Positions 8,684 to 63,613 of a DNA stretch of 64,000 nt are shown here, in pieces. A model generated the notes under the pieces. That model ran no database searches. It saw nothing but the letters and a program-made list of their open reading frames with translations, and was not told the DNA's origin. The DNA lies in contig OX393564.1 of assembly GCA_947652115.1 (NCBI GenBank), positions 14,835,276-14,899,275 on the forward strand, read 5' to 3'. How positions within the stretch are numbered: the stretch's first letter is position 1; each line of letters starts with the position of its first letter. Both the position numbers and the translations under genes were made by a program. This DNA is from Blastomussa wellsi. Lineage: Eukaryota > Cnidaria > Anthozoa > Scleractinia > Plerogyridae.

Positions 8684-9411
8684 CTTAAATCTTTCTGCCA
8701 GAACAGGGTTGACTTTTCCTGGTCTTGGAAGATCAGAACCTGTTATAATGTAAAAATGAACAAATTAATTAACAGAGTAGTTTTCTATGAAAAAAAAAAC
8801 ACTCTGCAAAATAAATAAAATGTGCAAGACAACTTCGGGGGACGGGACTGTTTTGGGCAACTGAAGCTGGAAAATTGAACATCTTTGCCAGCCTTGAAAG
8901 TAACATCTGGCAACATAGTTCAAGGTTACACAACATTAAGTTGTAAGACAGTTAAAATATGATAATTAAGATGCAAGAATTGTAATTACCTTCACCTTGG
9001 AATTGTTTTATTTGATTCTCCAACTCCCTAACTCTTCTTTTCAAACTTCTGCAAGACTCACAGGTTTCATCTTCTTCGTCTTCCTCACCACCATCACTCT
9101 CTTGTAATAAATTTCTTCTGGGGCATTTCCCGCCTACTGTGGGTCTCGATCTTTGTTGTCTGGGTAATGCTTGCATTGAACCAGCAGATGTTGATCCAGA
9201 GGGTGCATCATGTGGCTGAATTGCTCTTGTAGGAAGTTGTAATCCTCCTGGGGTGCTGTCCTTTAGTGACGCCAAAGTGTTTTGTAGCTGCACTCCGTAG
9301 CTCCGTTATTGTGGTTTGCAGTTGCACTAGAGGGTTTTGTGGGGGTGCTGGCACTCTTGTTGTGGAAATGTTATCACTGCTTGTAAATGTAAGGTCACAA
9401 CATTCCCTTAC
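8684..9411 (-). pseudogene. BEN-type gene copy 1, coiled-coil exon and following exon
   Basis: Minus exon at 9,411-8,990 encodes a low-complexity stretch and a C-x2-C coiled-coil segment (CESCRSLKRRVRELENQ). It ends at a GT donor in phase 1 and joins in frame to the exon 8,740-8,684 (SDLPRPGKVNPVLAERFK), which has AG and GT edges. The counterpart in copy 2 (62,702-62,784, ending VISPVLAAKYK) also follows a cysteine/coiled-coil exon and precedes the BEN exon, supporting homology. A frameshift near 9,293 breaks the coiled-coil exon, and its upstream part is cut by a transposon at 9,419. No BEN exon was found further down, so the gene is a pseudogene. Confidence 0.65.
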
Positions 9412-9418
9412 TACATTA
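9412..9418. repeat. Target-site duplication, left copy (TACATTA)
   Basis: Matches TACATCA at 15,812-15,818 with one mismatch and flanks the inverted ends of the 6.4-kb element exactly. The duplicated bases lie in the exon of the interrupted BEN-type gene. Confidence 0.75.
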
Positions 9419-10564
9419 GTGGGGCGGATATGTGCAGAATTTTACTAGAATTGTTCACTTCGTGTTAAAAGCACCATATTCTCAGGAATGATAGAACTTT
9501 TTATGACTGTAAATATCTGATATAGTGCCATCGTAAAATTTTCCGCCTAGGCGAGATTTACAGCTCTTTCCAAAATCTCCGCCATTTTGACCGGAAGTGA
9601 AATGCAATATTACCGGAAGTGCCCTTTTTTCTATTAAAATTAGTCCTAATGTTGAATAAAATGAATTCTAAATATTTTTCATACATTCTGAAAAATTATT
9701 ATACATCACAGATGACTTGTCTGCTTGAATAAAAAAATTTTTGACTTAACCAGAAGTGAAATTATCCTCAACCGGTAGTTATATTAATGTTAACTAGTAA
9801 CCAGAATGCAGTAATGTCGATTTCAAGTGATGATGTTATTTTGTTTTTATTGTACACAGCGTATTTTATAGAAATTTGTATAATACCCAGAATGCCCCTG
9901 TGTACTACTCAGAATGCTTTATAATTTGCACATCACATCCGCCATCTTTGTTCAGATCAGCCATGTTTATGACTGCTTGTGCAAACTGTAAGTATCCGCT
10001 CTTCCAGTGTAGACTTCTCAGTAGAAAAACATGATATATACAGACATTTAGATAAGAATTGATTAATCTACTTAAAAATAATAATCTTTACGACAGCTTG
10101 CGATAACTGTAAATATTGACTCGATCGGTCTTCAGTTCCACAAAGCAAATGTAACACATCGACTTTTTGTTAGGAAAAAAATTAACATTGGCTATCAACA
10201 ATGAATAACGTAATGCCCATGAAGACTAAACTAGAGGACAATGAACATGATTACAAAAATTATTTGTGAACAGCTAAAATAGAAGCAGACTGGCAACAAA
10301 TAATATTGCACAAAAAAGGATATTTCTAGCAATAATAATAATAATAATGTTATTCATTTTGTTTTCGAAAAGGACCTCAAAGATTAAGACTTAAAAAAAC
10401 TATTTACACTGTTGAACGTAATTGTTAAGTTATGTTTCAAATTATTATAATTATAACAGACCACATGTTCCGTTATAGTTTGAATTTTTATTCACAAATT
10501 AAGAAATGATGAGAAAATACAGAAACATACAAAACAACGAATTTATTTTCAGTGGCGTAGTCGT
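9419..10564. repeat. Left terminal and subterminal region of the 6.4-kb transposon
   Basis: About 200 bp of terminal inverted repeat is followed by AT-rich non-coding DNA. ETS-like CCGGAAGTG or its variants occur at about 9,590, 9,614 and 9,749. Weaker ACCAGAATGC or CTCAGAATGC forms occur at about 9,800-9,920. A short AAT microsatellite lies at 10,329-10,347. These are the likely transposase-binding and promoter sequences for the gene that starts at 10,565. No gene is seen in this stretch. Confidence 0.6.
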
Positions 10565-13500
10565 ATGGATTATGATAGCCAAACACCGTTAACAACTGTT
10601 TCAAAGACCGACTGGCAGATCTGTGCTATTTGTCAAAATGTCACCAGTGAGGCATTGCAATGTCCTGCTGATACAAAACGCTCAGATGTGGGAGCAGGCT
10701 ACAAGACCTTGGCAGCTAACATAGAGATGTTCGCAAAGCTGGGATGCATGCCAAAAGAATTATGCCTTTCCCGACTAGACGAAGGCAACGGGATTGAAGA
10801 AACATTTCTGGCAAACAAGGCACGTTGGCATAAAAGTTGTTATGCCCTTTTCAATTCAACCAAGCTTAAAAGAGCTGAAAAAAGGCATTCAAGACAACAG
10901 GAGGACCTAGTTGGTGGGAAGTTTACTCGATCAAGTGCCGGTGTATGCGCAGAAAATACAATTCCTGCCTGTTTTATATGTGAAGAGAGTGACGACCGAA
11001 TTCTCCACAATGTTTCCACCCTCGGATTAGATGATAGAGTACGGGAATGCGCATCTCTGCTAAACGATGAGAAGTTATTAGCAAAGCTAAGTGGAGGGGA
11101 TTTAATCGCTCTTGAGGCGAAGTACCATACTCACTGCCTTTCTGCGCTGTATAGAAAAGCACAATGTGCAAAGGAAGAGGGTGAAGAGAGGGAACAGCCC
11201 CGTCATCGTCTTGATGGCATCGCTCTAGCAGAACTGGTGTCCTACAAGAAGATTTTCGAACAAATGGTGCAGAGTTACCAACGTTTAAACTTGCAGATCT
11301 CGCAAAAAAGTACCAATCCTGTTTGCAGAGACTCGGTTGTGACACAATGGCTCGTGTTAACACTTCACGACTCAAAGAGCGCCTTGTTTTTCAAATTCCT
11401 GGCCTTCAGGCTTACAAACAAGGGCGTGATGTGTACTTGGCCTTTAGTGCTGATGTCGGATTTGCACTGCATAAAGCACACGAAGAAGACTGCGACGAGG
11501 AGGCCATGCACCTTGCCAAGACGGCCGCGATTGTCCGTAAAGATATGCTTGCAAATAAATACTGCTTTTTAGGATCCTTCGAACCTAACTGTCAGGCAAA
11601 ATCTGTCCCAGCTTCACTGCTGTCTCTTGTTCAGATGATCCTATATGGGCCAAATATTGACGAACAAGCATGTAGTTCAGGAAAGGTACAAGCAGCACTT
11701 ACTATCTCACAGCTTCTGCAGTACAACACCCGTGTTCGTTGTCGTGATAGAGAAGTGAAAAGGGAACGGAGAAGCAAATGTCGTGAGACACCACTACCTA
11801 TATACATAGGAGTATCTGTTCACGCCAAGACACGCAGTCGTGAGCTTGTTAAGACCTTACACGATTTAGGAATCAGTGTTTCGTATGACAGAGTGTTGGC
11901 AATTTCCACAGATCTGGGTAACGAAGTTTGCAGGCGCTACATAGAGGAAGGTGCAGTATGTCCTTCTAATCTTCGCCTGAATTTATTTACAACCGCGGCC
12001 GTCGACAACATTGATCATAATCCCACTTATACAACCGCTCAAGATTCATTTCATGGGACTGGCATATCTTTATTTCAGCAACCCACCACAGAAAACCCTG
12101 GAACAACAAGAGCACCTATTGATATATCACATGCAGCGGCCAACACGAAGTCAGTTCGTGAGTTACCTGAAACTTATACTGAAGTTGCACCAGTTATTGT
12201 TACAACCAAGAATCCTCAAGTTTCAGCAACCAACATTAACGTACAACCTGATGGAAGCTCCTATAATCGCAGTTTGAAAGATGAGGTCAGATGGCTCGAG
12301 AATTCCACTAACGTTATATGCAATCAGGAGGGCTTAAAGGAAGAGGAAGTAGTTTCCTGGGGGGCATTCAACTCTCGTGACCCGCAAAACAGTTCGCCAC
12401 CCACTACAGCTGGGTTATCAGCCCTATTACCACTGTTCCCTGATCAGGCTAAGTCCATTGCTATGATAAGACATGCTATGGATATGATCAAGCTCTCTGT
12501 AAACCATCTGAATCCCGGTCAAGTTCCAGTAATCGCCTTCGATCAGCCACTTTTTGCTGTCACGAAAGAAATTCAATGGAACTGGAGCGATACCTATGGT
12601 GAAGATAAGTTCGTGGTCATGTTTGGTGGCCTTCATATAGAGATGGTGTTTCTGAAGGTAATAGGAGGATGGCTGGAAGGTAGTGGATGGACCACTGCAC
12701 TGGCTGATGCAAACGTCGCGTCTACCGGGACAGCAGATTCCTTTATCAAAGCTACAAGTGTCACACGTTCCCGTCGGGCCCACCAGGTGACAGCTTGCTG
12801 TTTATTTCTCCTGATCCAGAAGGCGTTCGTAAAGTACAAAGAAGCAGCAGGAAACGAAGACGACGTCATGTCCTTTGACAGTTGGTGCACTCAGCGAGTT
12901 TCCGCATTTCCCCAGTTTCAGTATTGGTACACAGCCCTACAGCTTGAGCTCCTGCTGCTTGTTTTCCTCAAGTCGCTTCGTGCAGCTGACTTCCACCTCT
13001 ATGTTGATGCGCTCTCAAAGATGTTACCATGGTTTTTTGCAATGAATCACAGCAACTATGCTCGTTGGTTGCCAGTCCATCTACGTGACATGCGCGCACT
13101 TGATCAGATGGTTCCAGATGTTGCGTCAGAGTTCAAGAAAGGGCTCTTTACCGTGAACAAAACTCCAAAGCGATTTTCAGCGATAGCCATCGACCAAGCC
13201 CATGAACAAAATAATGCCATGGTAAAGGGAGACGGAGGAGCAGTTGGCTTGACTGAAAATCCAAACGCTCTTCGCAGATGGATGCTATCAGGCCCAGAGA
13301 TGGCAAGGCTGGTTAATGAGTTCGAGACAGGCATTAATCCTGACACAGAAGCAAAGGACAACTCAAAGCATCACGAAGATCACAGAAGTTTCCAGGTCTC
13401 ATTCCATCAAGATGTGAAATCCCTAGTTGCAGCAGTGGAAGAGTTGGGAAATCCTTTCCTAGAAGAAACTGGCGATCTCTTCGTACTTGACACCAAGGTA

Positions 13501-15135
13501 GTTGCAGAGGAATCAGCAGTAACCAGGATGCGCCATATTGAATCTGAAGGAAGAAAGCAGTGTGAAATGTTCATTTCTGAGCGTCTCATCGAGAGGAAGA
13601 AGCCATTAGCTGATACAATTGTAAGAAACAAGCTCAGCTTCTTTGAAACGACTTCAAAGAAACCTTCTAAAGCAAACCAGCAGCTAACTTCGATGAAGAG
13701 AGATTGCTCCCTCTTCTCCAGGTTGTACATTTCATGTCAGACCAGAAATGGAGATCTAAATGAATTTTTCAAGCATGAGAACCAGGGTTGTCCACCAACT
13801 TTATCAGACCAAGGAAATCTTCGTCTTCCAAAGAAGAAGTCAGAGTTGACGGAATGCCTTCAAGCGCTTACTTCACCACAAAGCCAGATGCCAAAGAATT
13901 TAGACGTACTTATTATTGATGGAGCGGCAGTGGTAAACATGATTAGACCTGGAACTGAACGAACTTTCTCAGGGTATGCTGCCGGATCTTTCGTTCCATA
14001 CATAAGATCGCAGCTTTCCCACGTCAACCGGCTAGATATTGTCTGGGACGTATACCTGGAGAACAGTCTGAAATTAACAACTCGGTGCCAGCGTGGTTCC
14101 GGAGTGCGACAACGTGTAGCAGCAGACAACAAGCTTCCCCGGAACTGGAAGGAATTCTTAAGAGTAGATCAGAACAAGCAGGAATTGTTCAAGTATCTTG
14201 CTGAGAGTGTAACATCGATTGATGCAGAGAAACAGATTATCTCTACCTATGGCAAGCAAGTCTTGAGCACCATTCCCATTTCATGCAACAACATCGAAAG
14301 ACTGGCCCCCTGTAGTCACGAAGAAGCTGATACAAGGATGCTTCTTCATGCGGCAGATGCAGTGCAGTGTGGCCATTCCAGAATTCTTCTGCGTACAGTT
14401 GACACGGATGTCCTTGTTTTGGCCGTTGCCTTTTTACAAAAATTGGAAGAGCTTCAAGGAAGACTTGTAGAACTTTGGGTTGGATTTGGCACTGGAACAC
14501 ACCTTCGCTTTATTCCTGCCCATGAAATCTCCAGAAAGCTAAGCCCTCAAGTCTCAAGTGCACTCCCATTTTTTCACGCTTTCACTGGCTGTGATACCGT
14601 CTCATGTTTTTACAGAAGAGGAAAGAAGACGGCGATGGACATATGGAACAGTTTTCCAGAGGCGACCACCGCATTTCTTACGTTAGGAAGTACGCCTCCT
14701 GAGGTCAACGACACGAGTATGGCGACTCTCGAAAGGTTTGTAGTTTTGCTCTACGACAGAACAAGTGCAAAAACAACCGTAAATGATGCACGTAAGCAGC
14801 TGTTCGTAAAGAAGGGCAGACAGTTTGACAACATCCCTCCGACCAGAGCAGCCCTATTGCAGCATTCCAAACGTGCTGTTTTCCAAGCAGGATACATCTG
14901 GGCTCAAACTCTTACTCCAAGCCCTACATTGCCAAGTCCACAAGACTGGGGATGGACCTTAGATGGGGGTTTGTGGAGGCCTTTCTTGACGTCACTGCCA
15001 GATGTGATGGGCTCCTGCCAGGAACTTGTTAGATGTGGCTGCATGAAGGGCTGCCGTAGGCAGTGCTCTTGTGTGAAGGCTTCTCTGCGCTGCACTGCCC
15101 TCTGTAAATGTCCCGATGAGTGCGACAACAGATGA
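10565..15135 (+). pseudogene. Giant transposon protein with FEN/XPG-like PIN nuclease domain, one frameshift
   Basis: Frame A (10,565 to about 11,275) has two zinc-binding-like units: CAICQ with ARWHKSCY, and CFICEE with KYHTHC. A one-base frameshift near 11,240-11,281 leads into frame B, which is open from about 11,280 to 15,135, together about 1,500 residues. The C-terminal third carries FEN1/XPG-like motifs in order: LIIDGAA (about residue 861 of the 11,323 frame), HEEADTRM (about 998), TVDTDVLVLAV (about 1,027) and FTGCDTVS. These correspond to the acidic residues and GCD motif of PIN nucleases. It ends in a CXC-type cysteine cluster (CGCMKGC then CSCVK then CKCPDEC). A middle region has conserved acids (IAFDQPL, AIDQAHEQNN) that could be an RNase-H-fold transposase; that part is speculative. 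Apart from the frameshift it is open throughout. Confidence 0.7.
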
Positions 15136-15811
15136 CTTTCTAAGTGTGAATGACTTATGTTTCTTCTAAACTTGCAGAGTATTCTGTATTAATATGTTAA
15201 ATTTATCAGTTACTGTAACATAAAAGTTATAACGGTTGGATAGCCAAAATGTGTGTTATTATGAGGGAAGAAGCATACCACTTCTGGTTCAGAATGTCAG
15301 ACATGCGCAGTTTGCCATGCGTAAATTCTTCCTTCAGAAATTAAGTAGTTTATTCTTTGTGAATGTGTAAACTGTATCTGGAACTGTATCATAAGATTTA
15401 TAAGATTTATAAAAGCAGATAGCCAAGCAGTATGTTATTTTGACGGGAGATACATAACCACTTCCGGTTTAAAATGGCGTTTATTAACATTCATTATCTT
15501 ATTGAATCTTTCTTGCGTTTTTGGGACTCAACATTACAGCACAATTGATTTTATACTCAAACTGGATCATCTATCTCCTACATGACCGTTTTCAAAGCAA
15601 ACACGCAAATATTTATAGCTTTTATATTAAGTTACAATTCTACTTCCAGTTCAAGATGGCGGCCATTTTGAAACACCCTCTTAACTCGGCTCAGATGAAA
15701 TTTTCATGGTGGCACCATATCAAACTTTCATCTATACGTTAAGGGCTACCTTTCCACCAAATTTCGTGCTTTTAACAAAAAGTGAACAATTCACGCACAT
15801 ATCCGCCCCAC
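15136..15811. repeat. Right subterminal and terminal region of the 6.4-kb transposon
   Basis: Contains CACTTCTGG, CACTTCCGG and ACTTCCAG blocks, the complements of the left-end CCGGAAGTG set, at about 15,280, 15,460 and 15,640. The terminal inverted repeat runs from about 15,640 to 15,811. No gene is seen. The short frame at 15,521-15,742 is part of this region and has no motif. Confidence 0.6.
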
Positions 15812-15818
15812 TACATCA

Positions 15819-25730: not shown

Positions 25731-25804
25731 CTTAACTGCAGAATACCCTGCCATTTTGAAGTTATACCCCTAAAAAGGCCGGATACTAGGTCATAAAGCA
25801 TATA

Positions 25805-26590: not shown

Positions 26591-26591
26591 T

Positions 26592-48307: not shown

Positions 48308-48330
48308 AAGAACAAATTGAAACAATTCAG

Positions 48331-48679: not shown

Positions 48680-49342
48680 TTACGGCGCGGGTGGACAGGC
48701 CAACATGCGTAAGGCCTGCAAGATGGCGCCCCGATAGCTGCGATACAACAAGTACTGCCCAGGTGAATTCACATGGACTCCGTCCGATAAATACAGGTCT
48801 CTAGATGGCTCGGAAAAACCGCGATGCTGCCAACAGAAAACATTTGGAATGGGGTCCAGAACTCCGCGAAGATACTGGTTAAGAATCAGTGCTGCGTCAT
48901 TGAAAATCGGAGCACAAACACGAGGGATCACCTCGCACACACCAATAACTCGAACGGCGTAGGAGTCCAGCAACAACCGAACCAATTCCTCGATCTCCGA
49001 TCCAACGACCTCTGGCCTTAAAGCAGAAAGGTCATTGGTGCCTATTTCCAAAATTACAGCATGCGGAGAAAGGGAAGAAAACACCCCAAGGTCATACTGG
49101 ATGAGTTTTCTCACAGTGCGACCGCCGACACCATGCAAATGAACAATGGCATCTTTCGAGAGCTTAAAACCCTCGTCCGCCCGAGGATCGAACTGTGTTT
49201 GAAGGTCATCCCGAAGTCTCCTAATAAACGAATGACCGAACAACAGAACAGTGGGAGGGGAAGAAGCCATCCAAATGCAAATTTTGAAATTAGAGCCAAA
49301 GAAAAGCCCACTCAAAACCCAGACTACACAATATAGCAGCAA
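48680..49342 (-). CDS. SGNH/GDSL-type hydrolase of the Ngaro-like element
   Basis: A 220-residue open frame; a likely start is the internal Met in WMASSPPTVLLFGHSFIRRL. The SGNH blocks are visible: GHS (block I, Ser), GVGGRT (block II Gly), EIGTNDLS (block III, GxND) and SDGVHVNSPGQ (block V, DxxH). SGNH hydrolases are esterases or deacetylases, and such an ORF is a known accessory of Ngaro retroelements. It is the first gene of the element on minus, 340 bp inside the 5' repeat. The frame is complete and the catalytic residues are present. Its role in the element is not known. Confidence 0.88.
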   Translation of the reverse strand: MLLYCVVWVLSGLFFGSNFKICIWMASSPPTVLLFGHSFIRRLRDDLQTQFDPRADEGFKLSKDAIVHLHGVGGRTVRKLIQYDLGVFSSLSPHAVILEIGTNDLSALRPEVVGSEIEELVRLLLDSYAVRVIGVCEVIPRVCAPIFNDAALILNQYLRGVLDPIPNVFCWQHRGFSEPSRDLYLSDGVHVNSPGQYLLYRSYRGAILQALRMLACPPAP

Positions 49343-49495
49343 TCAATAGCGAAGAATAGACAAAACAATGTCCGAGACAACAAAACAAAACCTGCACCGG
49401 GAGCGGGATTAGGCACTAAAAGCTCGATAAGAAAGGGTACCACAGCCCGATCAAAATGGCTATTAGAATGAAAAAAAAAATAATCCATACCTTAA

Positions 49496-49704
49496 AGTGC
49501 TAAAACAAGTCTTGCACCGCAGACTAACCGGGACGGATTGTTGAGCACATGGCTTGAGAAGTCATATGATCAACACGAAACCCTTACAGGGGGGTCTACT
49601 GCAATACTAATATTCCCCCCGTCAGGCCCAGGCCCACTCTAAATCAAGCAATACACAAGCAGAGAAAGGGACATAAAAATCCTATTTCCTGAGAAATATT
49701 CCCT
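49496..49704. repeat. 5' split direct repeat (B copy) of the Ngaro-like element
   Basis: Near-identical to 42,973-43,181, beginning AGTGCTAAAACAAGTCTTGC and ending GAAATATTCCCT. Defines the right boundary of the element on plus. Confidence 0.92.
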
Positions 49705-49818
49705 ATCATACATGCAAGATACAATGTTGTGAAACAAGTTGAAGGATTTAATAATGCATTACTACACTTTTAACCCACTTTTATTGTTTTTATAAGTTTT
49801 TCGTTACATGTAGGTCAC

Positions 49819-52800
49819 CTGCATATCTATGCTCTGTGTTCCATGGAACAGAGCAGTCAGCTCACCATTTGCATCTTCAAATTCGAATGCAGAATGTGCC
49901 CATAGTGGTCCATGATTACGAACGGAAGCATTGATGTGGAGCAGATTATGGACATTCATGGCCATGTGGCGTTCACCTGAAAGAAAAGCAGACATCCTTG
50001 TCATTTTTGTTAATTGTAATGATTACAGTGATGGTTTGGATCAAGGAAAAGTATAAATCTTACAAATCTAATGATATTTAAAAAAAAAAAAACAAACAAA
50101 ACATCAACAAACAGGGGAGTGACATACATATGTTTCAGTGAAAGTGTTAAAGTGACCTGAAATTGCAAATATTTAGGAATGTGTAATATTATCTAATAAG
50201 AAATCACAACAGACTGTAGCCTAATTACAGCATCTGTGAATCAACTTACCATAAAGGGCATCAAATAGCATCACAAATTTTCCAATGAGGTTCCCACTCA
50301 GATTAAGATCTTCTAGACAAATGGCCTCTTGGTTGACAAGCCAAACTCCAAATGCAAGAAGCATAAAGTGGTGAAGATAAATATCTGGTAGAACACCATT
50401 CAAGCAAGGAATACTATAGTGAAACAGCCAATTTCGGTACTCGGTTGCTGTGGAAATAATGCCTTGTGTTGAGCATGATTACCTTTAACAAAAGGTCTGC
50501 ATGTGTAAGGATCCCGTGGACAAATAAAGTTCAGTATTCAACATTTATGTTTATTATTTAGTGAAAATTTGGCAAGATGTTCCCCAGGAAGCCACTGTAG
50601 CTCATTATACAGTCATTTATCTATTTAGCCTAAACTGGGGTTTTATTTTCAGTATTTTACTAGCAATAACGTCATATAGCAAAAAATCAATCAACAATAA
50701 TAAACTTAAATAAATTAAATATTAATTTCCATCTTTATTAACTCCATTTTGAAATCACTGGTTATCCTTGCAATGTGATTGGCTCTCAGCAGTGCGATTT
50801 ATTCCCAAATCGCACTATCTTTTGCTCTAAATCGCATCTTTTTCTCAACCAATGAGAATGAAACAGTAAAACAAAACAACCAATCAGAAAAAAAATCAAA
50901 AAAAAAATCAAAAATCAAAATCAAAATCAAAATCAAAATCAAAAAAAAAAAAAATCAAAAAAAAAAATCAAAATCAAAATCAAATTGTGCGATTTCAAAA
51001 TGGATTTAATAAAGTGGTAATTGAACTTCGGGTCGTGCAATTTTGGTCTGAAATCATACTTGTGATTTCAAATCGAACTCGCGCTGCGCGCTCGTTCGAT
51101 TTTGAAAGCACGCGTATGATTTCAGACAAAATTGCACTCCACTCAGTTCAATTTCCATTATATATCAATTAAAAAGTCTACATGCAGATTTAAAAGTTTG
51201 CATGGATTAAAAAGTCCACATCAAGCCCCTATTGCATTAACTCATCCACATGTGCACATGAATGAGTTATACATGTATTTATAACGTACATTGCAAGTGC
51301 AACTTCACCTTTAAAATATTTGCGATGAGTTTCAATAGATCTGGGTGTTCTTGTGATGTTCAATGGTGGCTGGATGCTGCATAGGCGCTCATCAATAACA
51401 CCAATAGCATCTCCACAGTACCAGGGTTTATCTTTGTATTTTGTATCCAACCAAAGGCCCATTAATTGCTTTGTGACTCCCAACAGCACACCATGCATGT
51501 AGTCTAAGCACACACCTTTACTGATGTCAAAGTTCCTCAGGCTTGCAAACTGACAAACACCTTTCATGCCATTTACCTTGACAATATGACAGAAATGGCA
51601 ATTGCAAACATACCTAGTCAGTTGATAGTAGAATACAAAGTAACAGTACATTTCTTAATCATTAACATCATCATCAACATTGTCATCATCATCATCATCA
51701 GACATACATACATGTTAGGCTTCAGTACAATTTTTCAACTTTATGATTTAGCTGCCTTTACCCACTCAGTGTTACTCAGTACATATATTCAACATATATG
51801 GTTTGCCAGTGCTAGAACTGAACACCTTGAGGAGGATAGTTAATGTACCTGTACACTGGTTCAGCCAAATAAGCTGCCAATTAGGAAATGAAATTTAATT
51901 TAATTTTTAGAACAAGAACCCAATAATACTTGTTTTGAATTGGAGATAGTCAGGTGCCTTTTATTTTATTTTATTAATATTTTTACCACTGTAAAATTAA
52001 TACTGCATGGCCACAAAATCGCACACTTCACAAATCCATTCATGATTTACATTTACTACTGGTATGCACAGAATCTTTGGTTGCTTCATTTTGAATAGTG
52101 ACACTACTACACTATGGCCAAAATATCTGTGATAGTAAACTTACTGGTTTGCCTCCTGATTCACCCTTAAGAAAGTGTAACCCATCTGCAACCATACTTT
52201 GACTAGTGCGTTCTCTGGCAAGGCCATCAGAGGACTCAAAGTTAAAAGGAAAAACTGTAACTCTTCCTCTCTTTCCGTCTTTGTCACTGGATTGACATGA
52301 AATTCCCAGAATCATACAATAACAACAGCTGCAAAAGCCATTAAACTGAAGCATTTCTAAAAAGCTGGATCTTGCTGGAAGATCGAGGACTGAGCCAAGA
52401 AGATATACTTTACTTGTGATTCTTCCTTTATCTGGAATTTCCATTTCAAGTCCTGCACGTTAAACAGAAGAGTGCTTCATGTCGCACATGTTTTATAGGT
52501 TCTATGTGAAAGAAAGTTACACCAAAATTCATACAATTCTGCACAGAACATGTAGTGTATGTCTTTGGCAGTCAAAATTAATATGTCAATTAAGATACCT
52601 AATCAAGGCTAGATTATCGTCAGTAAATCTTGCTCTCAAGTTCATAGTAATCAAGTTTTGTTTCTGGGTGTTTACCTAAAAATTAGGTTATCTTAGGGAT
52701 TTTGTCTAAAGTACATTGATGTGGTGATAAAGATTATAAAATTATGTACCTTTTGTTTCTAGTTCTTCTAATGAGGTTCTGAAAGGCTTTAAAAAGGTAG

Positions 52801-55800
52801 ACATGACTGGTTTTTTGTCACTAAACCAGAGACCACCCAACACCATGTTCTCCAGGTGCCTCCTGATAAAACAGTAATCACAGGCTTAAGGTTGGCACAC
52901 ACAAGGGGACTAGTCCCTGTGACTAGTTCCTGCAACAAGTCAGGGGACAAGTCCCATTGTGTGAACTTGGCAAAATCAAGGACCCACATATTCAAACTGG
53001 TTTGAATTTTTGGGACAAGTCCCTGCGACTTGTTCCTTAAAACACTTTTTATGAACTGTTCGTGGGACAAGTCCCTGCGACCAGTCCCTTCACATAAACT
53101 CTTCACTGAGGACACTGAGGAGACTAGTTGCAGGGACAAGTCACAAGTCCCATTGTGTGTGCCCGACCTTAATGAAATATCTGTCAATTAATAATTTACG
53201 AAGATTGCATATCCCTAGCTCCAGTCCTGGATAATGCCACAATCAAATTCCATGACTTTCCAGGTTTCAAAATGTTTCAAAAACTTCACTTGGGAAACTC
53301 ATTCAATTTGCAATTGAAGCAAATCTTTCAAAGGAAGAATGTGTATCCTTGTTTTACATGCATGGACATAGACCCTTTGCATAAATGGCACTTAAATTGA
53401 ATAACAATAGCTCGTTTTTACTCACGTGACCAAAAGCCTAGTAACCGTCGCTACGCCGCCATATTGGTGGAGTAAAACTGTAAACAAACCGAGTCACGTC
53501 TTCACTGTGAAGATGGTTTTTTACATGGTAGTTGGTTGTGGAAGCGAAAGCACTCCAGGTAAAGATCTTCATTTTGCTTAAGTCCCATCAGTAGTCACCA
53601 ACCAAGGAGAAGAAGCGGAAAAATTATCCTTTAAACGGCGATCACGTTGGATTTCTGCAATAAGTCAGTCTGATTTGACTGAAAAGATTCTCGCAAATGA
53701 TCGTGTATGCAGCTGCCATTTCGTCTCAGGAATAGCACCGAAAAGTTGGGACAAATACAATGTTGGCTGGGTGCCGACTTTAAACCTGGGCCATAAAAAG
53801 AGTGTGGAGAGAGGAAACATCGACTGACAAGCATCAAGGACAGAGAGCTAATGAGAAAGAAAGGAGGCGAAGGGAGCAAGCTTAAGAAGAGAGGGAACGG
53901 GCGTGCTTGCAGAACTAATCGCAGCAAAGAAACTTAAGTTGAATGAAGCGGGTGAACAGATTCAGGTCTTTCCTTTGTCGAAGAACCGCTAAAAGTGTGT
54001 CGATTCCAGTACACAAACAGAGGAGTTAGATTATTTAGTAGCTGGAGTGCCACCACAGCGACCATTTTGCGAAGATCAATTTCCGAACGACGACAAGAAA
54101 GTAAATTTTTATACCGGATTACCTTCGCTTAACGCGTTGAAAGTTGTTTTCCTTTGACTTAATCCCTTCGTAACTCGAAAGGCCCAACGTATTACTCGTT
54201 TTCAAGAATTTGTCATGACTTTGATGAAGCTTAGACTAAATAGAAAGAATTCAGCTCCTCTTCCGACGGAGCTGGCACACTTTTAGACTCAAGTTTGGGC
54301 TCCTCTGCCAGGTTATCGCCCTACGATATGTCGAAAACCCTATCTAAGGTTGCATCCAAGCCAGTTTCATTTCTTTACTGAAGTAAAATTAATTTCGCGA
54401 ACTCTTGCGTACTCGACTTACTTTACATACGAATGTAGAATACACGAACACTTCCCTTGCGTGAATGACATTTTTCCATTTATTTTTGTGCATGTCTCGA
54501 GGTAAAAGAGTACGCTAGCTACATGGTAGCAGGATTCCCCAAGACCGCACAGCAATGAGCAGAAATAATAGTTCCTTTCTTTTCGGTAATAATCCACACT
54601 GGAATCAACGAGTCATTCATTCTCTGCGAATGTCTTACCCTCGCTAAAACTACAAAATTATCCTTGACTATGTGGCCCGGTACACTTGAAATAAATCCAG
54701 ATACAATCTGGTTGTACGCTTGAAGGCTTCGAAATGCTTTAAAGTGCTGTTTTGTGTTGTAACTTGTGTCTAAGACAAGGTAAAATAGTAGATCGGTCGA
54801 TTCCACCGCAGGTAAACAATCAGGTTGAAAGTTCTTGCCCTCGAACAACGCAGGATCGATCCCAACTGCTGATATTTTTTGAGGTAACGTTTCTTCACTT
54901 TTGGCTCCAACTTATTAGCATAATCTAAAAGAGTTATGGAACCTTTTTCGCTGATATTTTGGCTTGACTTTACTTCATTCTCCTCAGTATCGAGCGCCAT
55001 TTTAAATTTCCGCGGGAAATGTACTCCACCAATATGGCGACCGGACGTTATGTGACGTCACGTGAAAACAATCTATACTTTATACATCCTTAGCCTCGAA
55101 CTCGTGGTTTTAGACAAAGGATTTTTCGCATGAATGTGAGGCCAAGGATGTATAAGTATTCTTATTCAAATTTAGACGCCATTTATGCAAAGGGTCTATG
55201 GCACAAAGCAGACACTACTATTTGAGGGTCTGGTGGATAATTATAGATTAAGATATTCAGTGTAGTAGTATCAACAATTATGTCAAATACCTTTTACTTG
55301 GGGGTAATTCATTAATTTGGAAGTACACTGGCCAAACACTTGAACCTGATGATTTAAACACAGATACACCATCTGTATTGAACTTTAAAGAAAAGTTCTC
55401 CAGTTGAGAAAGTGGACCATCGCCTTCAAACAATTTACTGTAAAGATGGCCATCATATACATCAGTGATGTCGTCAGCTGCGTTTTTCTTCCTCTGAAAG
55501 CGGTGTTTTATATCTTCCTGGAATTCCTTTTCTAATGAAAAATAAATGTTGATGAAAATTCAAGAAGTGATCAGTGTAATAATGTTCATGGCAGAAATTG
55601 AATATTCTGTGGGTCAGAAAACACCTCTTCTTAATGGTAGCCGCTCATTTCGCTAACGAGTCGTTTCACTAATGTCCAGTTTGCTAACGTACTGAGACGA
55701 TCCGCTAACGTCCAATTCGCTATTAAATCATCTCCAAAGAAGAGTATAACTGATGATAAAAACTAGTTTTGCAAGGGTATAAACAAATTTAGTAATAAAA

Positions 55801-57738
55801 TTTCTTGTGCTGGGTATAGATCAAATAGTAATAAAAAACTGATACTCAAGACTCAATTCATATATAGATTATCCTTCGTTCTTTTGTCCACTGCCAAGCG
55901 AAATATTTTTAAACAGATTTGATAAATAGTAAGTTCAATACACTTTAAAAAGCAACTTGACAACGTTAGCGAATCGACTGAACACATTAGCGAATCGTCT
56001 CAGTATGTCAGCAAAGTGGACATTAGCAAAACGACTCGTTAGCGAAACGACCGACATTCCTTCTTAATACTAATCTGTTCTTTTTATTATATGATTTAGT
56101 GATCCCAAATAAAAGGAGAAGTCTTATTGGTTCCCTAAGCAGTATGAATTTCGCAATTAAATATTTATACAGGCTGCTAAGATGGACAAGTTGCTTCTAC
56201 AATCCATAGCTGAAAATTAACAGATTTTTGTTCAGCAGAAATTGTTTAACTTATATGTCTAACTTCAGTGTAGCTGCATGCGCCTTTCAATAACATGGGG
56301 ACTCTAAAATTAAAAGCTCAACCGACAAATGCTTTTTCTGTTTCCGTCAATCAAATGTTCGGCGGCTCCTCCCAGCTTCTAACTACGTTGTCTGAACAGA
56401 ACAATATGATTTCATTATCGTGCACTTGGCAGTAGTCGAAAGCTCCTTGGTACTTGGTGTAGTTTTTAATCATTATTCAGCCCGTAAATTCTTTGTTCTA
56501 ATCAGTCAAGTCATGCTGGACAGCCACCTTCCTTACAGAATTGTAACTTTGAATGGCTGAGGTAACTGTTTGAACAAATTTAGGCACATGTTGTTTATGT
56601 GATCCCTAGCAAACCACTATGTGCAACATCCATGAAGTACCTACCCGAAAGCTGGGAGGAGCCGCTGAACATTTGATCGACAGTAGCAAAAAAAACACAT
56701 TTACACAGTTGTGCTTTGAATGTTACTGAAAGGCGCAGTAAAAATGTTCACAAAAGCGATGCAAGTTTATGGAGCTTAATTGCCTGCAGTTCAGTCCATA
56801 AATCTGTAAAAAAAAAGAACTACATGGACCACATGCTAGTTCAACAACATATATATATAATAAACCATACTCATTATAGATATCTGCTTGAAAGGTTACT
56901 TACTTTGTGCAAGTTCTCTCAGCTGATTTTCCATGGAAAGAATGACAAAATATGGTTGTTTCTTCAAATTACTCACATCCTTCCCGCATATAGGGCAGAC
57001 ATCAGGAGTATCACCCGTGACACCAAGGTATTCAGAACAAAACTTACAATAGAAGTGTTTCGTTATAGGAAGTTGTAAGTCCACAAAGTACTTCTTTAGT
57101 GCATTCAATGAGCGGACACACTTGTTTTGCGGTCTGGGAATACAGTGTAAGTTGATCAGAGAAATAACGTCTGAAAGACAACTTCCGTTTAGGTTGTGAG
57201 TAACGGCCAGAGTGAGAATCAAAAGAACGCTTTCAGACAATTTAAGATGCGAGCCAGGGTACACATAGGGGTCCTTATCTGGCGATTCATTCGTTTCACT
57301 AAAGTCGTTGCCACAAACTTCATTCTCCGGTTCCTCATCTGAAAACTGCATGTCAGTCTCACAGTAGCTGCTGCAGGATCCATCACTTTCGGAATCACTC
57401 CAATTCGTATCCAAAGAGCCAGCGCTGTTGTCTTCGGGTGAAGAAAATTGTTCATGGCTGTGGGGAGATACAGGCAAGGAGATGCCAGAATCTTGAAAGT
57501 GCTGTTCACAATCATCTGAATCGTTTGATAAGCCGAGGTTGAATGTCACACTTCCGAACAGCGCGTCGTTAATTTCCTCGGAGTTTTGAACATCATCATC
57601 TGTGCTGATTTGTCTGGTTTTATGATTTTGTCGATGGACAGTACTTTTGGGTTTTTGTAGGGATACATCTCTTCGATGAGTGTTGTAACGACCTCTTTTA
57701 GTTGGTCGGCTTTCCAACGGAACTGCAGCCAGATCCAT
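49819..57738 (-). CDS. tnp2-like transposase copy 2, exons 1-7
   Basis: Exon 1 (57,738-56,904): acidic N-terminus, [26 protein letters not shown] and CPICGKD. Exon 2 (55,531-55,291): [35 protein letters not shown]. Exon 3 (52,862-52,750): [11 protein letters not shown]. Exon 4 (52,452-52,145): [20 protein letters not shown] and a C-x2-C. Exon 5 (51,576-51,309): [20 protein letters not shown]. Exon 6 (50,447-50,250): [20 protein letters not shown]. Exon 7 (49,976-49,819): [20 protein letters not shown] then HGTQSI. All edges are GT-AG and every exon is open. Each block aligns by order with copy 1. The gene continues in exons 8-10 beyond the Ngaro-like insertion. It may be intact if splicing bridges the 7-kb insertion. 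Confidence 0.72.
50780..51140. repeat. Low-complexity AAAATC run within a palindromic region
   Basis: (AAAATC)n and poly-A blocks at about 50,885-50,985. The flanks contain GTGCGATTT/AAATCGCAC and related TTCGATTT inverted motifs (50,790-51,120). It lies in an intron of the copy 2 transposase. The lysine-rich open frame here is an artefact. Confidence 0.7.
52886..53172. mobile_element. MITE with TTAA target sites
   Basis: TTAA, then GGTTGGCACACACAAGGGGA at the left, and the complement TTGTGTGTGCCCGACC followed by TTAA at the right. Internal GGGACAAGTCCC palindromes repeat several times. TTAA duplication is compatible with Kolobok or piggyBac mobilisation. Its right TIR starts 24 bp upstream (minus) of exon 3 of the transposase. 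Confidence 0.75.
53513..53990 (+). pseudogene. THAP-domain protein fragment
   Basis: From the ATG at 53,513 the plus frame reads [17 protein letters not shown], a stop, then [35 protein letters not shown] and [11 protein letters not shown]. This is a THAP zinc-finger arrangement (C-x-C near the N-terminus, W, C-x2-H, P). At least one stop and later frame breaks make it non-functional. THAP proteins bind DNA and are frequent in transposases. Confidence 0.7.
54519..55000 (-). pseudogene. SWIM/YqaJ-type transposon protein, N-terminal fragment
   Basis: Two minus frames, 55,000-54,770 (start [20 protein letters not shown]) and 54,848-54,519 ([20 protein letters not shown], then [19 protein letters not shown], ending [11 protein letters not shown]), overlap and appear to be one protein split by a frameshift near 54,835. 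The second part has the order HxxxFKAFxSLxAYNQ ... [13 protein letters not shown] ... ISAHC that precedes the SWIM zinc finger in YqaJ-type mobile-element proteins of invertebrates, as I recall. The exonuclease part is absent, so this is an internal-deletion remnant. Confidence 0.45.
55632..56072. repeat. MITE-like inverted repeat with TTCGCTAACG motifs
   Basis: Arms 55,640-55,735 and 55,968-56,068 are reverse complements (CGCTAACGAGTCGTTTC, TGAGACGATYCGCTAA blocks). Within each arm the TTCGCTAACG motif repeats. A related stretch with TTCGCCAACG motifs occurs at 58,440-58,545. Confidence 0.75.
56330..56700. repeat. MITE-like inverted repeat
   Basis: Arms TTTTTCTGTTTCCGTCAATC followed by AAATGTTCGGCGGCTCC (56,333-56,395) and their complement (56,647-56,696). 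About 250 bp of unique sequence lies between. Non-coding. Confidence 0.7.
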
Positions 57739-57950
57739 GGAGCGTCAAGCGTCATGCACATGTACGTGCTGTCGTACGCGCTAGACCACAATGCACGGGC
57801 AGGCACTGGCACGTGATCAGAAAAGAGCAAGAATATTGTGAACTGCAAGTTGCTCACGCTTTGTGTCTTAGAGTGTCTTTGAGTATCTCCGCGTAATTTC
57901 AGCTTCATCAATTTCAATATTGTTTTCCGAGTTAATTGACGACACCTACT
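57739..57950. promoter_or_regulatory. Presumed bidirectional promoter, BEN gene and tnp2-like gene, copy 2
   Basis: 212 bp between the divergent start codons (57,738 minus and 57,951 plus). More GC-rich than the surroundings on the transposase side. Same arrangement as 25,255-25,433. Confidence 0.5.
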
Positions 57951-60900
57951 ATGAGAGAAACAAAGACGCCTTCTCGCTTCACTGAGGACCTTGGTAAGTC
58001 ATGCACAGTTTAATTCCATAACAATAGGTGAAACGAACATGCCCGGCGGGATTGTGCCATATATACAATGTGGGCGAAGTGCATACCGGCGGGCTCACGG
58101 TTAATGAACTTGAAGCTTACTATTTCGCTTTCTTAACAGCCAGCAGCTTATAGTGGTGCATCTCTTCGGTATCATTTCTCTTCCTAAACGTATTTTGAAT
58201 AATATAACAACAGTTAATATCACGAAGCGGTGGCAAGGATACGCAGCGATAGCACTCTTTGCATTGCTGAAACCATGCGCATGCAGTTTCTCTCTTCGGT
58301 ATTCAGGAATAAAAACCACATTTAATAGCGTTTTTGTCGCTCTGTAGTAAAAATTTTGAACAAACAATTGATCAGTATACTGACTCGTTTCTGATCGACA
58401 TTGCCCAACTTTAATGAACGCACTCCTCCTCCGACTCCCCGGTCGTTTCGCCAACGTGTCAGTTCGCCAACGACCATGCAGTGTACCAACGTATGAAGTC
58501 GATTCGCCAAAGCTTATAAGTGTAGGTCAGTTTCCCAACGTCTAAAATACTTTTTGGAAAAGGTCTGAAATGTATTTACAAATCACCACAGGAAGAAAAT
58601 GTCACCTTTGATGTATGTAAGATATATATTGTTCGTTTCGGCATTAAAATGTTCATTTCACCCTTTAATCTCGATCTCTCCCGTCGGCCATGACGATATA
58701 ATATCCATGACATATTTAATATGAGTATGAAACGCTTGCAAAATCTTTTTATTCACAATATTTGCATAGTTTAAAGAGCCTGAAACTTCTCATATAAAGG
58801 GAATTATCTTTGTTCATATTAAGAATATGTGAATAAAACAGCTCATCGGGTTTAGTTTCTGTTATATGGCTTTCCTAGCTGGTGTGAAAACTTTTGCAGG
58901 TCCTTCGAGAAACGAACTAGCCTCAGGTTGTCATCTTTTGTTTGCAACATACTGCATTCCATCCAGTTTTCATTTCATGTCCTTTAAAAGGCCCAGAATT
59001 CGTTTAACACAAATTAATACTCTAGCTGTCACTTCCCCCCAGTTAATTCCACTATAGACCCTATGCATAAATGGCTGCCAATTAAAAATTCTCTTGTAAA
59101 TATTAAAAGTAGCCCAACTAACCTCGTTTTTGAGTTGATAACTCAAAAGAATTTTTACTCTCAAACGAGGTTGGTTGGGCTAATTTAAATGCATACAAAA
59201 GGATTTTAAATTGGCAGCCATTTATGAATATAGGGTCTATAAGCTGAACTAAACTTACTATCACACTAGACTTATATACCATCCAAAATCAAGCAAAATA
59301 ATTGCTAAATATGGGCCTTTCATATTTTTTTAGACCACTACCTTGTTGTCTTTAAAGAAGACAACGTTAAGGCGATTGTTAGTCATGGGGAAATTAAGGA
59401 CTGTGACGATATAGTGAGGGGTGCATCATGTGAGGCCCTCTGGAAGGATGCCAAACACAAAGAATGGTATCCTGCCTTTATTGTGGACATTGGAGGTGAG
59501 TCCATTTCAACAAACATCATATATTTTAAATTCCATTTTTAATAATAATTATTAGATTAAAAACACATGCTACAGGGACTGCATAAACAGCCTTATGAAC
59601 TGACTTCAATTTATTGGCCCATGCCACTGATTGTGGTTCAATTAAATAGTAATTTTTATTGTTTCTAAACAGCCAATAAAAAGTGGCATGTGTCTGTTGA
59701 AGGTTTTCTTGGTGTAAGAGCATTGCTTTGCATTCATAATTCATTCTATCCCTATAATGTTTTAGATCTTGAATGTTTAAGAAGTGTGCAGAGTAAGCCA
59801 AAAGGAAAAAATCAGAAATCCAGAACTACAGCCTGTAAAACAGCAGGAACCAAGGAATCGGCCAAGAAAAGAAAAACTCCAGGTACATGTAGAGCTAAAG
59901 CAAGACTTCCTTAAACACTATACATGTAACTTTGTTCTAAGGCTTTCAATAACAATAATATTGAGTGAAAAGTACATAACCTTCCACATGTTTTGAGGCT
60001 GCTGCCTCTTTATCAGTGGACCATTGATGAAAAGGCAGCAGCCTCAAAACATATGGAAGTTTACATACACAACAATGAATGTTTACTAGTTTTCTTTATC
60101 AAACAAACCTTGCCCATCACAGTTTCCTTCTTGTTTTTGTTTTTTTTTTTTCAATTACAATTCTTTTCATACATGCACAGTAGACACTATCTCTCTCCAA
60201 GACACCCTTGGGAACATTCCTAGCAGTCTTTTTTACAACATACAATAAATATTTAATGTAATGATTGTTACTGTGAATATAGTACCTAACCTTATTGTTA
60301 TGTTGTTTAATGCTCTTGTGAAACTCAGTTCAAGAGATCCAGTCCCAAGAAGTCCAGTCTGGGAGTGAGGAAGAGCAACAGAAGAAGCAAAGTGAGACGA
60401 GGAAAGAGGCTAAGGCTAAAAAAGCTGTGAATGCAAAGGCAACAAAGGATGCACTGCTCAAGAGAAGGCTTGAGCAAGCCAAACAGTTTGAAGGTTACAA
60501 AGTTCCCAAACCAAGTGCTAACTCTGGGATGTGTTCCCAGGAGGAACTTCCTTATGAGGATGTTTCAGAGGACAGAGGTGTGCATGCTCAGCAAGACAAG
60601 GACTACCGCTCTCAATTCAACAAAGACAAAGCAAGGCATATACATGTATATAAGCTACCAGCCTCCAGAACTGCAGTCCCTAACCAAACCAGAACCAAGG
60701 AATCTCAAAAAAGAAAAAAAACAGGTATAACATACTAGTTAACACTATCAAATATCAGTAATAAAGCAGACTGGACATGGCTCCAGTTTAATTGACAATA
60801 ATTTGGACATAAGAGTACATCTATACATATTTTTGTGGTTTAACAAAATAAAAAAGTGAATCAATAATACTGAGTGACCAAGTAATGCTCCCTTACTGTA

Positions 60901-63613
60901 ACAAGAAGAAGCATAGCTAAATAGCCAATATCAGAGAATTACAGCAATGTCAAGATATATATACACGCAGACATCCCCACTGAAGCAAATAATAAGGAAA
61001 AGGCAAACCAAAACATTGACTCAGTGCTTTTGAAATTCAGTCCATGAGGTGCAGTCTGAAAATGACAGAGAAGAAAAACGAATGAAGACAAAAGACATAA
61101 GCAGTGATGCTAAAGGAAAAAAGGCTGTGAATAAAAAAGCTACTAAAGGCGCACAATGGAGAAAAAGCCTTGAGACTGCTAATTCTGAGGTACATTCCCA
61201 GGAAGGGCTTTCTAATGATGATGTTTCCGATGTGGAAAGTATCTGTAGCCTGCCAGGGAATCAACATGACGACTGCTCCTTGGTACATGTAGATGATTAC
61301 TATGCTACTTCTGATGACGAAGATGAAACAGTCTCAGATGAACTACACAGTTCACCTCTGAAGGAGCCCTTTCAAAAGGGTAAGTCAAATTTTCAGTCCT
61401 GGATATTACCAGCTGTTTTGAACCCATTTGAAGCGGATATTACTTGATGCATTTGATAATCATATAGATTATATGAATTTAAACTCCAAATTTGTGATTC
61501 AAGTTGTCCAGAAAACTGTTCCTTCAAGAACCTCTAACTGATCTGTGAAAGCAGCAGCAGAGAGAAATTTTGGAATGATTCTATTGAAAATGTAATTTGC
61601 ACCACAATCAGCTTTTATGCATTTCCACTGAGAAAAAGTCTAAACAATAAAAAAATTACGTTGGTTGTTTATCTTTTTCTATCTACAGGTGCATGTTCTT
61701 CAAGCACACCATCAAGAAAAAGAGCAGCCTCAGATGCTTCTAAGAAAAAACAAGGTGAATTTGTTAGGCTGTTCACAGTTCTAGTAAATTGAAATGTCAA
61801 ACACGAGTTAAATGATTATATCTTCCCAAACTGCACCTACCTTATAACTGCTCTGTCAAAATAGAGACAGACGTTTCAAATTCATTTTGACAAAAAAATG
61901 TTTTTGTAATAACCTCATCTATTTATATTCAGGAGTAAATAGTTTTCCCACTCAGTGAACAACAATAATAATAATGGTACATCATTTATTGAGCATGCAT
62001 GCATGTTGGCAGGCAAGCACCTGATTTCATTGATTTTATTTACGGACAGTTTCCCTCAATTTGCCTATCTACAGGTCAACTTCCCCGCTACTGTGGCTGC
62101 CAAGAGAGCATTTTCTTGAGAGAAGAGATTAAAAAAATGAAATACAAAGTAGAAGAACTCCAAAGAAAATTAAATGGCAAGAATTCCTGTCATTATCATA
62201 CAGATTTAATGTTTGACAACTATATATAGAAATGATCATAAAACTTGTCTTTCCAGTTTGTCAGTTTCCAGTCACTTTCCAGTTTGTCAAAATTCAGGGA
62301 TTCACTCTATCCTACACAGAAGCAGATTCAGAATGCTGCTTCTGCTTCAGGGATTAATTGGACTTACTTACAAATTTCCTCTAAAACTTTGGGCAAACCT
62401 AAAGAAAAATGCTCAACTTGAGCAATTTTTATGAGAAATTACAGAGACATGCAAAATATACACTCAGGTACATGTAATCTGACTTAATTGATAGAAGATA
62501 GTAACCCCTCAAAAACAGGTGATTTATTTGCCAAGCTAGGTACTAGGTACTAACTTGTTTTTACAACCACAGAAAACACAATTAGTAAATTCTCTATAAA
62601 GATGCATGTTAATTATGTCATGTCTGTACAGCCATGGTTCATTGCCTGCCAATTCATGTCTGTCAATAGGTTATTGTAAATTTGCTTTGTTTAATATTTC
62701 AGAGCAGTCAAGTTTACTGACTGAAAGTGACAAGAAACCCCTCGCAGGGGTGATTTCTCCAGTTTTAGCAGCGAAATACAAGGTACACTTGCAAATATGA
62801 TACATATTTACTGTAATAGAAAATCAGCAATAACAATACATGATACGTAATGTCACTGCAACATTGATGACCAAAATGAATCCTTACTACATGCATGTAC
62901 AAGATAATGCCATTTATTTTAATCAAAACAGCTATTTTTGTTGAAAATGTTTCATCCAACACTGCACTCTCCACTCTCCTCACTTGTTCAAAGCAAAAAG
63001 AGAAATATTCAACCATTTTACAGTAATGTGCTTACTGATCATTTACTTTTCAAAACAATGTTATTAATTCTGTTATAAGGTCTCCATGATCCCTCACATC
63101 GCATGGCCACAAAAAACCTTGCCTTCACAAAGAGACTCAGTTACTTTCAGTTACATTACAATGCATGGTCTAGTTGTCGTATGGTCATAGATTTGTTGCT
63201 GTAATGTCAGAAAAATGCAATTTGACAAACATTTTGAATATATGCAGCCATCTTTCTAACCTCAGATGATTTGTTTTCTGAAGATAAGGTTTGGCATATT
63301 GAAATATTACATGAGGAATTCTGAGTGAAATCTAGGCTAGATTATTAACCTCTACATCATTAATAAATGTTCTCATTCAAACTGTTTTCTCTACTAACAT
63401 GTAGATGGAAGAGATGATGGTTGGGAGCGGCGTCTTTTGGTACCCCTCCCAACGCTTGAATGCCTTGGCAGAGGGGAAAACCATAGGAACGATGACATCC
63501 TATTTATTGGACGTCATGTTTGATAAAGAAAAATTGAGTATTTCGAACTTGAAAGGAGGAGGGCACTGTGGCTACCAGCAGCTGTGCCCCAGAATAGTGG
63601 GAGCCATTACAGG
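57951..63613 (+). CDS. BEN-domain protein, copy 2, at least nine exons
   Basis: Exons: 57,951-57,993; 59,334-59,495; 59,767-59,881; 60,329-60,725; 61,042-61,380; 61,689-61,753; 62,075-62,175; 62,702-62,784; 63,405-63,613. All join in phase. Exon 2 is a small beta-rich unit (HYLVVFKEDNVKAIV, LWKDAKHKEWYPAFIVDIG). Exons 3-6 are basic and acidic linkers, with exons 4 and 5 sharing KEAKAKKAVN/KGKKAVNKKATK segments. Exon 7 has CGCQES and a coiled coil. Exon 9 is the BEN domain (GSGVFWYPSQRLNAL, LLDVMFDKEKLSISNLKG). BEN domains bind DNA and recruit chromatin factors. Exon 7 uses a GC donor (AAATG|gcaag). The gene probably continues past the window. It diverges from the transposase gene of the same element. 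Confidence 0.8.
58430..58550. repeat. TTCGCCAACG motif cluster
   Basis: GGTCGTTTCGCCAACG, AGTTCGCCAACG, GATTCGCCAA and GTTTCCCAACG occur within 110 bp in intron 1 of the BEN gene. Related to the MITE at 55,632-56,072. The rest of the intron (57,994-59,053) holds no gene. Confidence 0.55.
59054..59242. mobile_element. MITE sharing ends with the THAP/SWIM element
   Basis: Ends TATAGACCCTATGCATAAAT and its complement, as in 53,368-55,199. The arms run almost to the centre (AATTGGCAGCC, AGCCCAAC, CGAGGTT blocks). About 190 bp, in intron 1 of the BEN gene. Probably mobilised by the element family at 53.4 kb. Confidence 0.75.
59979..60062. repeat. Hairpin repeat in a BEN-gene intron
   Basis: Arms ACCTTCCACATGTTTTGAGG and CCTCAAAACATATGGAAGTT with GCTGCTGCC/GGCAGCAGC inside. 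About 84 bp with a short loop. Confidence 0.8.

Follow-up and report, generated by a model that had tools for sequence, protein, structure and literature searches.

The 64,000-nucleotide stretch of the stony coral Blastomussa wellsi analysed here (contig OX393564.1; C5:14835276-14899275 of its 367.8-Mb genome; hereafter the window) contains two pairs of genes that start head to head, each made up of a gene for a tnp2-like transposase and a gene of a BEN-type family. The first-pass annotation had read this arrangement as a two-gene transposon present twice, with 179 and 212 bp between the starts. All four starts lie where it placed them and the interpretation is supported, although the arrangement is far more frequent than twice, since 13 BEN loci with a divergent related transposase are found in the same genome.

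Divergent gene pairs in the window

In copy 1 the start codon of BEN1 (25254-25252, minus strand) faces that of tnp1 (25434, plus strand), and in copy 2 the start codon of tnp2 (57738, minus strand) faces that of BEN2 (57951, plus strand), the starts being read directly from the sequence. The genes, their exons and the stretches that separate them are as follows.

8678..9420, minus strand: two BEN1 exons, one for the coiled coil (9420-8985, containing a frame slip) and one for a linker (8740-8678); identity to P0124 is 97% across 112 amino acids
15797..16531, minus strand: BEN1 K/E-rich exons (16531-16395 and ~16100-15797), with a frame slip; they match P0125 and P0124 in two frames
24823..25254, minus strand: start of BEN1, with the ATG exon (25254-25252) and the N-terminal domain exon (~24997-24823); 73% identical to P0125 residues 7-61
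25255..25433, no strand: shared intergenic (promoter) stretch of copy 1, 179 bp
25434..38438, plus strand: tnp1 gene, with a first exon in two parts (25434-~25732 and ~34721-35365) on either side of an inserted element and later exons at 35815-36074 (frame slip), 36579-36692 and 36858-38438; motifs TDG, CPYC, DYMH and FEDFNG
40606..57738, minus strand: tnp2 gene, exons ~57738-56905, 55540-55290, 52867-52748, 52453-52190, 51576-51310, 50448-50251, 49983-49810, 42442-42326, 41782-41429 and 40728-40606
57739..57950, no strand: shared intergenic (promoter) stretch of copy 2, 212 bp
57951..63614, plus strand: BEN2 gene, with the BEN-domain exon at 63402-63614; the gene runs on outside the window

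As first proposed, the transposase exons match between the copies in order, at a diverged 30-58% identity, and with their exons joined tnp1 and tnp2 are 33% identical over 921 columns. This divergence rules out that the window arose when a single pair was simply and recently duplicated in inverted orientation, an origin also contradicted by the different exon structures and by the close copies that each transposase has elsewhere. The tnp2 exons span almost the full extent of its relatives, and two of the exons are separated by a retroelement at 43.9-49.3 kb. Both copies retain TDG, CPYC or CCYC, DYMH, and FEDFNG or FEDANG, which we take to be the catalytic D, D and E with the C(2)C signature between the first two. 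Membership of Transposase_21 was established through the Montipora relative P0003, which aligns with the main part of tnp1 at 87-88% identity and matches PF02992 with an E-value of 6.8e-9 (35.7 bits against a cut-off of 28.6); P0056, P0074 and P0101 also score above the cut-off in the Pfam scan. No Pfam transposase match was obtained with the open reading frames of the window alone or with the Acropora cervicornis relative P0012, and the window's own transposases are absent from the matches listed in a Pfam search of the whole genome. Among the matches listed, the closest named relatives of tnp1 are from Montipora capricornis and Acropora millepora (88%), and both transposases match tnp2-like proteins of animals, namely corals, scallops, an oyster, a starfish and a soft coral. 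A search of plasmid records with tnp1 gave no match.

The proposal of a BEN-type gene in each pair holds for the family of both genes; the BEN domain of copy 1, which is known from its relatives P0125, P0137 and P0142, was not found within the window by pattern, profile or tblastn. A weak match at 2.5-2.8 kb was rejected as the copy-1 BEN exon because by eye it lies inside a retroelement. The linker exon at 8740-8678 is the one that stands just before the BEN domain in BEN1 relatives. The BEN1 family numbers 19 matches, of which P0125 looks full length and the Porites protein P0142 is named as BEN domain-containing. BEN2, read by eye, comprises about 10 exons without a stop up to 63614, and its last exon, with one stop near the end, lies about 19 kb past the window (82722-82841 in window coordinates); its relatives include P0121 of Montipora foliosa (92% identity across 70% of the query) and P0122 (78% across 75%). 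The BEN-domain exon of BEN2 matches BANP with an E-value of 0.002 and has no Pfam match, and phage records searched with this exon gave none either. In the model of the BEN protein a long helix is predicted for the central part, and the BEN domain lies at the C-terminus. Foldseek comparisons gave solved BEN domains, most of them with DNA, for every one of the first 21 matches with P0125 and of the first 15 with P0121, counting Bsg25A, which we presume to be a BEN domain. The assignment of a BEN fold is thus founded on the BANP match, on Pfam BEN matches that fall below the cut-off, seen in 2 of the 13 proteins scanned, and on Foldseek; it is weak by sequence and clearer by fold comparison.

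A copy-1-type pair and a second pair of another family stand tail to tail (BEN-tnp, tnp-BEN) both in the window, at 25434-57738, and at C8:17591947-17619405, as if such elements insert near each other.

Recurrence of the pairing and the ends of the element

The Blastomussa wellsi genome was searched separately with the BEN proteins and with the transposases, the best 53 of 201 and the best 53 of 191 candidates being scored in the transposase searches. With P0125 as query, 24 exon matches were obtained that make up nine BEN1-family loci, and at all nine the nearest transposase, among 11 loci at least 50% identical to P0003, is divergent, with 443 bp to 25 kb between the listed matches. When strands were assigned at random, none of 200,000 draws reproduced divergence at nine of nine loci, and when positions were randomised the mean number of BEN loci, out of nine, within 25 kb of a transposase was 0.036. 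The BEN2 family has four loci, every one of which has a divergent transposase of the matching family, as found in the search with the tnp2 protein.

C9, divergent: transposase 15165101-15156790, BEN2 at 15167756
C8, divergent: transposase 17569658 (one exon), BEN2 at 17568192
C1, divergent: transposase 20070482-20066368, BEN2-like gene at 20074070
C5 (the window), divergent: tnp2 and BEN2

Taken together, the two families have a divergent related transposase at 13 of 13 BEN loci, which are dispersed over contigs C1, C5, C8, C9 and C12, and this recurrence excludes chance head-to-head placement. The pair is therefore not unique to the window, and the BEN genes are not host genes of a single locus without a transposase, as they lie at multiple loci with a transposase near each. 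Several of the 13 BEN loci consist of one exon only, and some contain stops.

Seen from the transposase side, nine of the 11 loci of the first group have a divergent BEN gene within 25 kb. No BEN partner was found in these searches for tnp2-like genes at most 41% identical to P0003, and none for four weak single-exon transposase matches (C12:25309406, C58:16945, C9:18645387 and C2:33901809). The pairing marks a clade of two related transposase groups and not all tnp2-like genes of this genome. Pfam's best tnp2 matches proved a misleading place in which to look for partners, being other families that are mostly 23-33% identical to the transposases used. Within C1, C5, C8, C9 and C12 many tnp2-like genes, belonging to several families, are concentrated in a small number of clusters, perhaps near centromeres.

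The boundary of the element on the BEN side was located by comparing two copies on different contigs. In the compact copy on C8 the BEN gene (17591947-17594966, minus strand) and the transposase gene (17595555-17599582, plus strand) have 589 bp between their listed matches. Its left end agrees with the left end of the C9 copy at 140 of the 142 outermost bases and at 990 of 992 non-gap columns further in. This identity starts, to within one base, at CCCTTAAC (C8:17590758 and C9:14803865), shortly beyond the BEN gene, and the sequences outside it on the two contigs are unrelated. CCCTTAAC is an exact transposon terminus on the BEN side, shared by two insertions, and because it lies beyond the 3' end of the BEN gene and is bordered by unrelated flanks, the BEN gene is inside the mobile element.

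Both kinds of end carry arrays of the palindrome GTATAC. There are 15 copies within 360 bp at the C8 left end and 15 at the C9 left end, a number of them 11 bp apart, and an array with a candidate terminus follows tnp1 in the window.

39115..39443, no strand: right subterminal array of copy 1, with 12 GTATAC within 330 bp downstream of tnp1, several of them in GTATACnnnnnGTATAC dimers
39438..39459, minus strand: candidate terminus on the right of copy 1, CCCTTAAGTATGGTTAGTATAC / CCCTTAAGTATGG when read inward

The C8 left, C9 left and window right ends all begin CCCTTAA. In the rest of the window and at 34 other loci GTATAC occurs at most three times per 360 bp, and no GTATAC dimers were found in 268 kb of other loci. 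Subterminal repeats are therefore present at both ends, the left being seen on the C8 and C9 copies and the right on the window copy. A left end past BEN is common to C8 and C9, and a candidate right end is seen in the window copy; a single intact copy would presumably be bounded by both.

Signs of the same pairing in other corals are indirect. The BEN1-family protein P0137 of Acropora muricata includes 15 residues that are 93% identical to the antisense of the main tnp1 exon (E-value 0.002), as expected if its gene model began inside a transposase gene lying head to head upstream. Furthermore, the source contigs of the BEN relative P0131 and the transposase relative P0005 are both of size 811377, a suggestive match, being one coincidence among 19 BEN matches and the 120 of 304 transposase matches listed.

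Decay and nested insertions

Copy 1 is broken and decayed, with inserted elements in both of its genes and at least one frame slip per gene, and copy 2 is nearly open. Two insertions account for the interruptions of copy 1.

9417..15813, plus strand: DUF6589-like transposon that splits BEN1, with inverted repeat TAGTGGGGCGGATATGTGC and CAT on both sides (by eye)
25733..34720, no strand: Merlin-type element of roughly 9 kb that interrupts the first tnp1 exon (ends judged by eye)

The DUF6589-like element has an open frame of 1306 amino acids, a Pfam DUF6589 match under the cut-off (E-value 0.0017), imperfect inverted repeats of about 130 bp and a 3-bp CAT repeat on either side; the relative P0124 is uninterrupted where this element splits BEN1. 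Likewise, P0003 is continuous across the insertion site of the Merlin-type element, which contains an IS1595-like transposase gene (26592-27221, minus strand), a DUF3987 gene (28128-29300, plus strand) and a nested hAT-like gene (DUF4371, 31857-33584). Close to the two ends of the Merlin-type element, at 25.87 and 34.33-34.67 kb, stand arrays of GGATACGC / CGTATCCG repeats that mirror each other. This element, too, may have two genes, with DUF3987 as the partner.

Other genes and elements lie within the introns and between the exons. A THAP-domain frame at 17079-22620 (plus strand; THAP E-value 2.7e-10), with apparent further exons to 22.6 kb, possibly represents another transposon. The two- to three-exon gene at 23184-24350 (minus strand), in the first long intron of BEN1, resembles by eye what we take to be the P2X7 intracellular-domain family, and its first exon has no Pfam match. 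By eye, frames at 43915-49342 (minus strand) resemble a DIRS-like retroelement encoding reverse transcriptase and tyrosine recombinase, after which comes a frame of SGNH-hydrolase type (48680-49342). An element at 53377-55200 in a tnp2 intron contains a decayed THAP-like frame, again by eye, and a similar end sequence (..CATAAATGGC..) recurs at 59063-59240.

Proposed role of the BEN protein and comparison with known systems

Each pair is probably an autonomous animal transposon of the CACTA/TRC type, or what remains of one, with two divergent genes, in which the BEN protein most likely serves as an end binder resembling the plant protein TnpA. The transposase gene would encode a tnp2-like DDE enzyme that cuts the ends. 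The BEN protein begins with an N-terminal domain and ends in a BEN DNA-binding domain, and the long stretch between the two is basic and coiled-coil; the coiled coil would most likely make the protein oligomeric. Because BEN domains read short sites, palindromic in several cases, and GTATAC is repeated at a spacing of about one helical turn, it is proposed that BEN domains bind the GTATAC palindromes, often about one turn apart, in the arrays at both ends. BEN oligomers would then coat the ends and bring them together, recruit the transposase and help cutting, and the protein may also act on the promoter of the element. Whether an animal CACTA-type lineage uses BEN as a dedicated end-binding partner, its oligomers reading phased GTATAC dimers to build the transpososome, is in our judgement an evenly balanced proposition.

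The strongest competing account retains the two-gene transposon and has the BEN protein act away from the ends, on host chromatin or on the shared promoter, by anti-silencing, insulation or repression. Parts of PMC6911014 and PMC6317261 describe BEN proteins as chromatin boundary and repression factors, and part of PMC1636069 reports that plant TnpA, which contacts its partner TnpD, regulates its own methylated promoter. The distribution of GTATAC, which is found at the ends and in neither intergenic stretch of the window, is at odds with such a role, and we consider this account unlikely, if worth keeping in view. Far less probable is that the BEN gene is merely carried as a passenger, a CACTA-type element having taken up a host chromatin gene on one occasion that plays no part in its movement. 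The many more distant tnp2-like genes of this genome that lack a BEN partner in the searches made would suit a passenger. Against it, the pairing is kept across transposase groups 33-51% identical to one another and in the same orientation at all 13 BEN loci, and other corals show it by indirect signs; a gene without use is unlikely to have been retained for so long. Finally, it is most improbable that the pairs are domesticated host genes which share a bidirectional promoter and were multiplied by local or segmental duplication. They do cluster within C1, C5, C8, C9 and C12 and stand tail to tail in the window and on C8, but this account is largely refuted by the left boundary, which is exact in two copies more than 98% identical and has unrelated sequence outside it. 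It is opposed also by the end arrays, the decay and nested insertions of the window copy, and the close BEN copies at several loci; nor is there a host gene pair confined to one locus and devoid of a transposon boundary.

Several observations weigh against the reading of the pairs as a two-gene transposon with a BEN end binder. As to the pairing, two of the 11 close transposase loci (C1:20018471 and C5:10277630) have no BEN gene within 25 kb; the transposase at C8:17601217 has the BEN gene of a neighbouring pair nearer to it, in tandem orientation, than its divergent one; a 3' transposase fragment of the second group (C9:15093331-15097796) is without BEN; and the C8 partner of the BEN2 family is based on a single exon match. 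In 10-kb stretches (about 8 kb of it upstream) around 20 of 41 Pfam tnp2 matches, six of these stretches being partly masked, the sole BEN match was the last exon of BEN2 itself. As to the BEN fold, the Pfam BEN matches of P0121 (E-value 0.0012) and P0142 (0.0071) are both under the cut-off, and stand for one of three BEN2-family and one of ten BEN1-family proteins scanned, the other 11 having no match; a sequence search of solved structures with P0142 found no BEN; every Foldseek E-value is above 0.001; and the P0121 model is weak, with a mean predicted local distance difference test score (pLDDT) of 51.6. As to the ends, the CCCTTAA inverted repeat is pieced together from different copies, the left from C8 and C9 and the right from the window; 651 bp on the right side of the C8 copy held just one GTATAC dimer and no clear terminus; the 40 kb to the left of the window held no GTATAC array and no left-end sequence (the best had 6 mismatches in 24); no terminus of copy 2 was identified; and GTATAC would be tied to BEN by analogy only.

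Should a BEN end binder be correct, BEN proteins would also be transposon machinery beside host chromatin factors, helpers of this kind might be the ancestors of some host BEN genes, and the pair would offer a route by which BEN genes spread among animals. The pair supplies a concrete candidate for what takes the place of TnpA in animal CACTA elements, with a known fold, a named candidate site, a compact copy whose end is nearly identical to that of another copy, and a divergent promoter.

CACTA elements of plants are the textbook two-protein transposons. Like the coral pair, En/Spm combines a tnp2-type transposase gene (TnpD) with a second DNA-binding protein (TnpA), and in both of its subterminal regions a short motif is repeated that is bound by TnpA, which coats the ends. 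In contrast, the second protein of the coral element is a BEN protein with its own divergent gene, and not a splice form of one unit as in En/Spm, and the coral ends start with CCC rather than CACTA. PIF/Harbinger is a two-gene DNA transposon of animals that pairs a transposase with a Myb-like DNA-binding helper; it differs from the coral pair in transposase superfamily and in helper domain. BANP, NACC1, Insensitive and BEND6 are host genes and are not inside a mobile element. They share with the coral proteins the BEN fold and have short, sometimes palindromic targets according to parts of PMC7764960 and PMC11472053; NAC1 selects ACATGT (PMC7764960, in part), and the crystals of BANP and NACC1 contained palindromic DNA (PMC11472053, in part).

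Among animals, the TRC elements, SmTRC1 with its relatives in Tribolium and Aedes, have the Transposase_21 domain, termini starting with CCC and spliced transcripts; SmTRC1 is 4.5 kb long with a 54-bp inverted repeat, and the covered part of its description, unlike the coral element, mentions no BEN-type second gene (PMC1636069). A transposition role for the BEN domain was not found in the literature passages covered, and a term search of the main text of PMC10027918, on transposon-derived transcription factors in animals, returned neither BEN nor CACTA. A BEN protein as the second gene of an animal CACTA-type transposon, or a BEN-encoding DNA transposon of any kind, has no described precedent in the titles and abstract openings of the openly licensed literature searched, a body that leaves aside Repbase Reports. 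DNA transposons with an unexpected second protein have been described elsewhere, with other cargo, in fungi with TET/JBP (PMC12730594, in part) and in KolobokP with a homing endonuclease (PMC9587614, in part).

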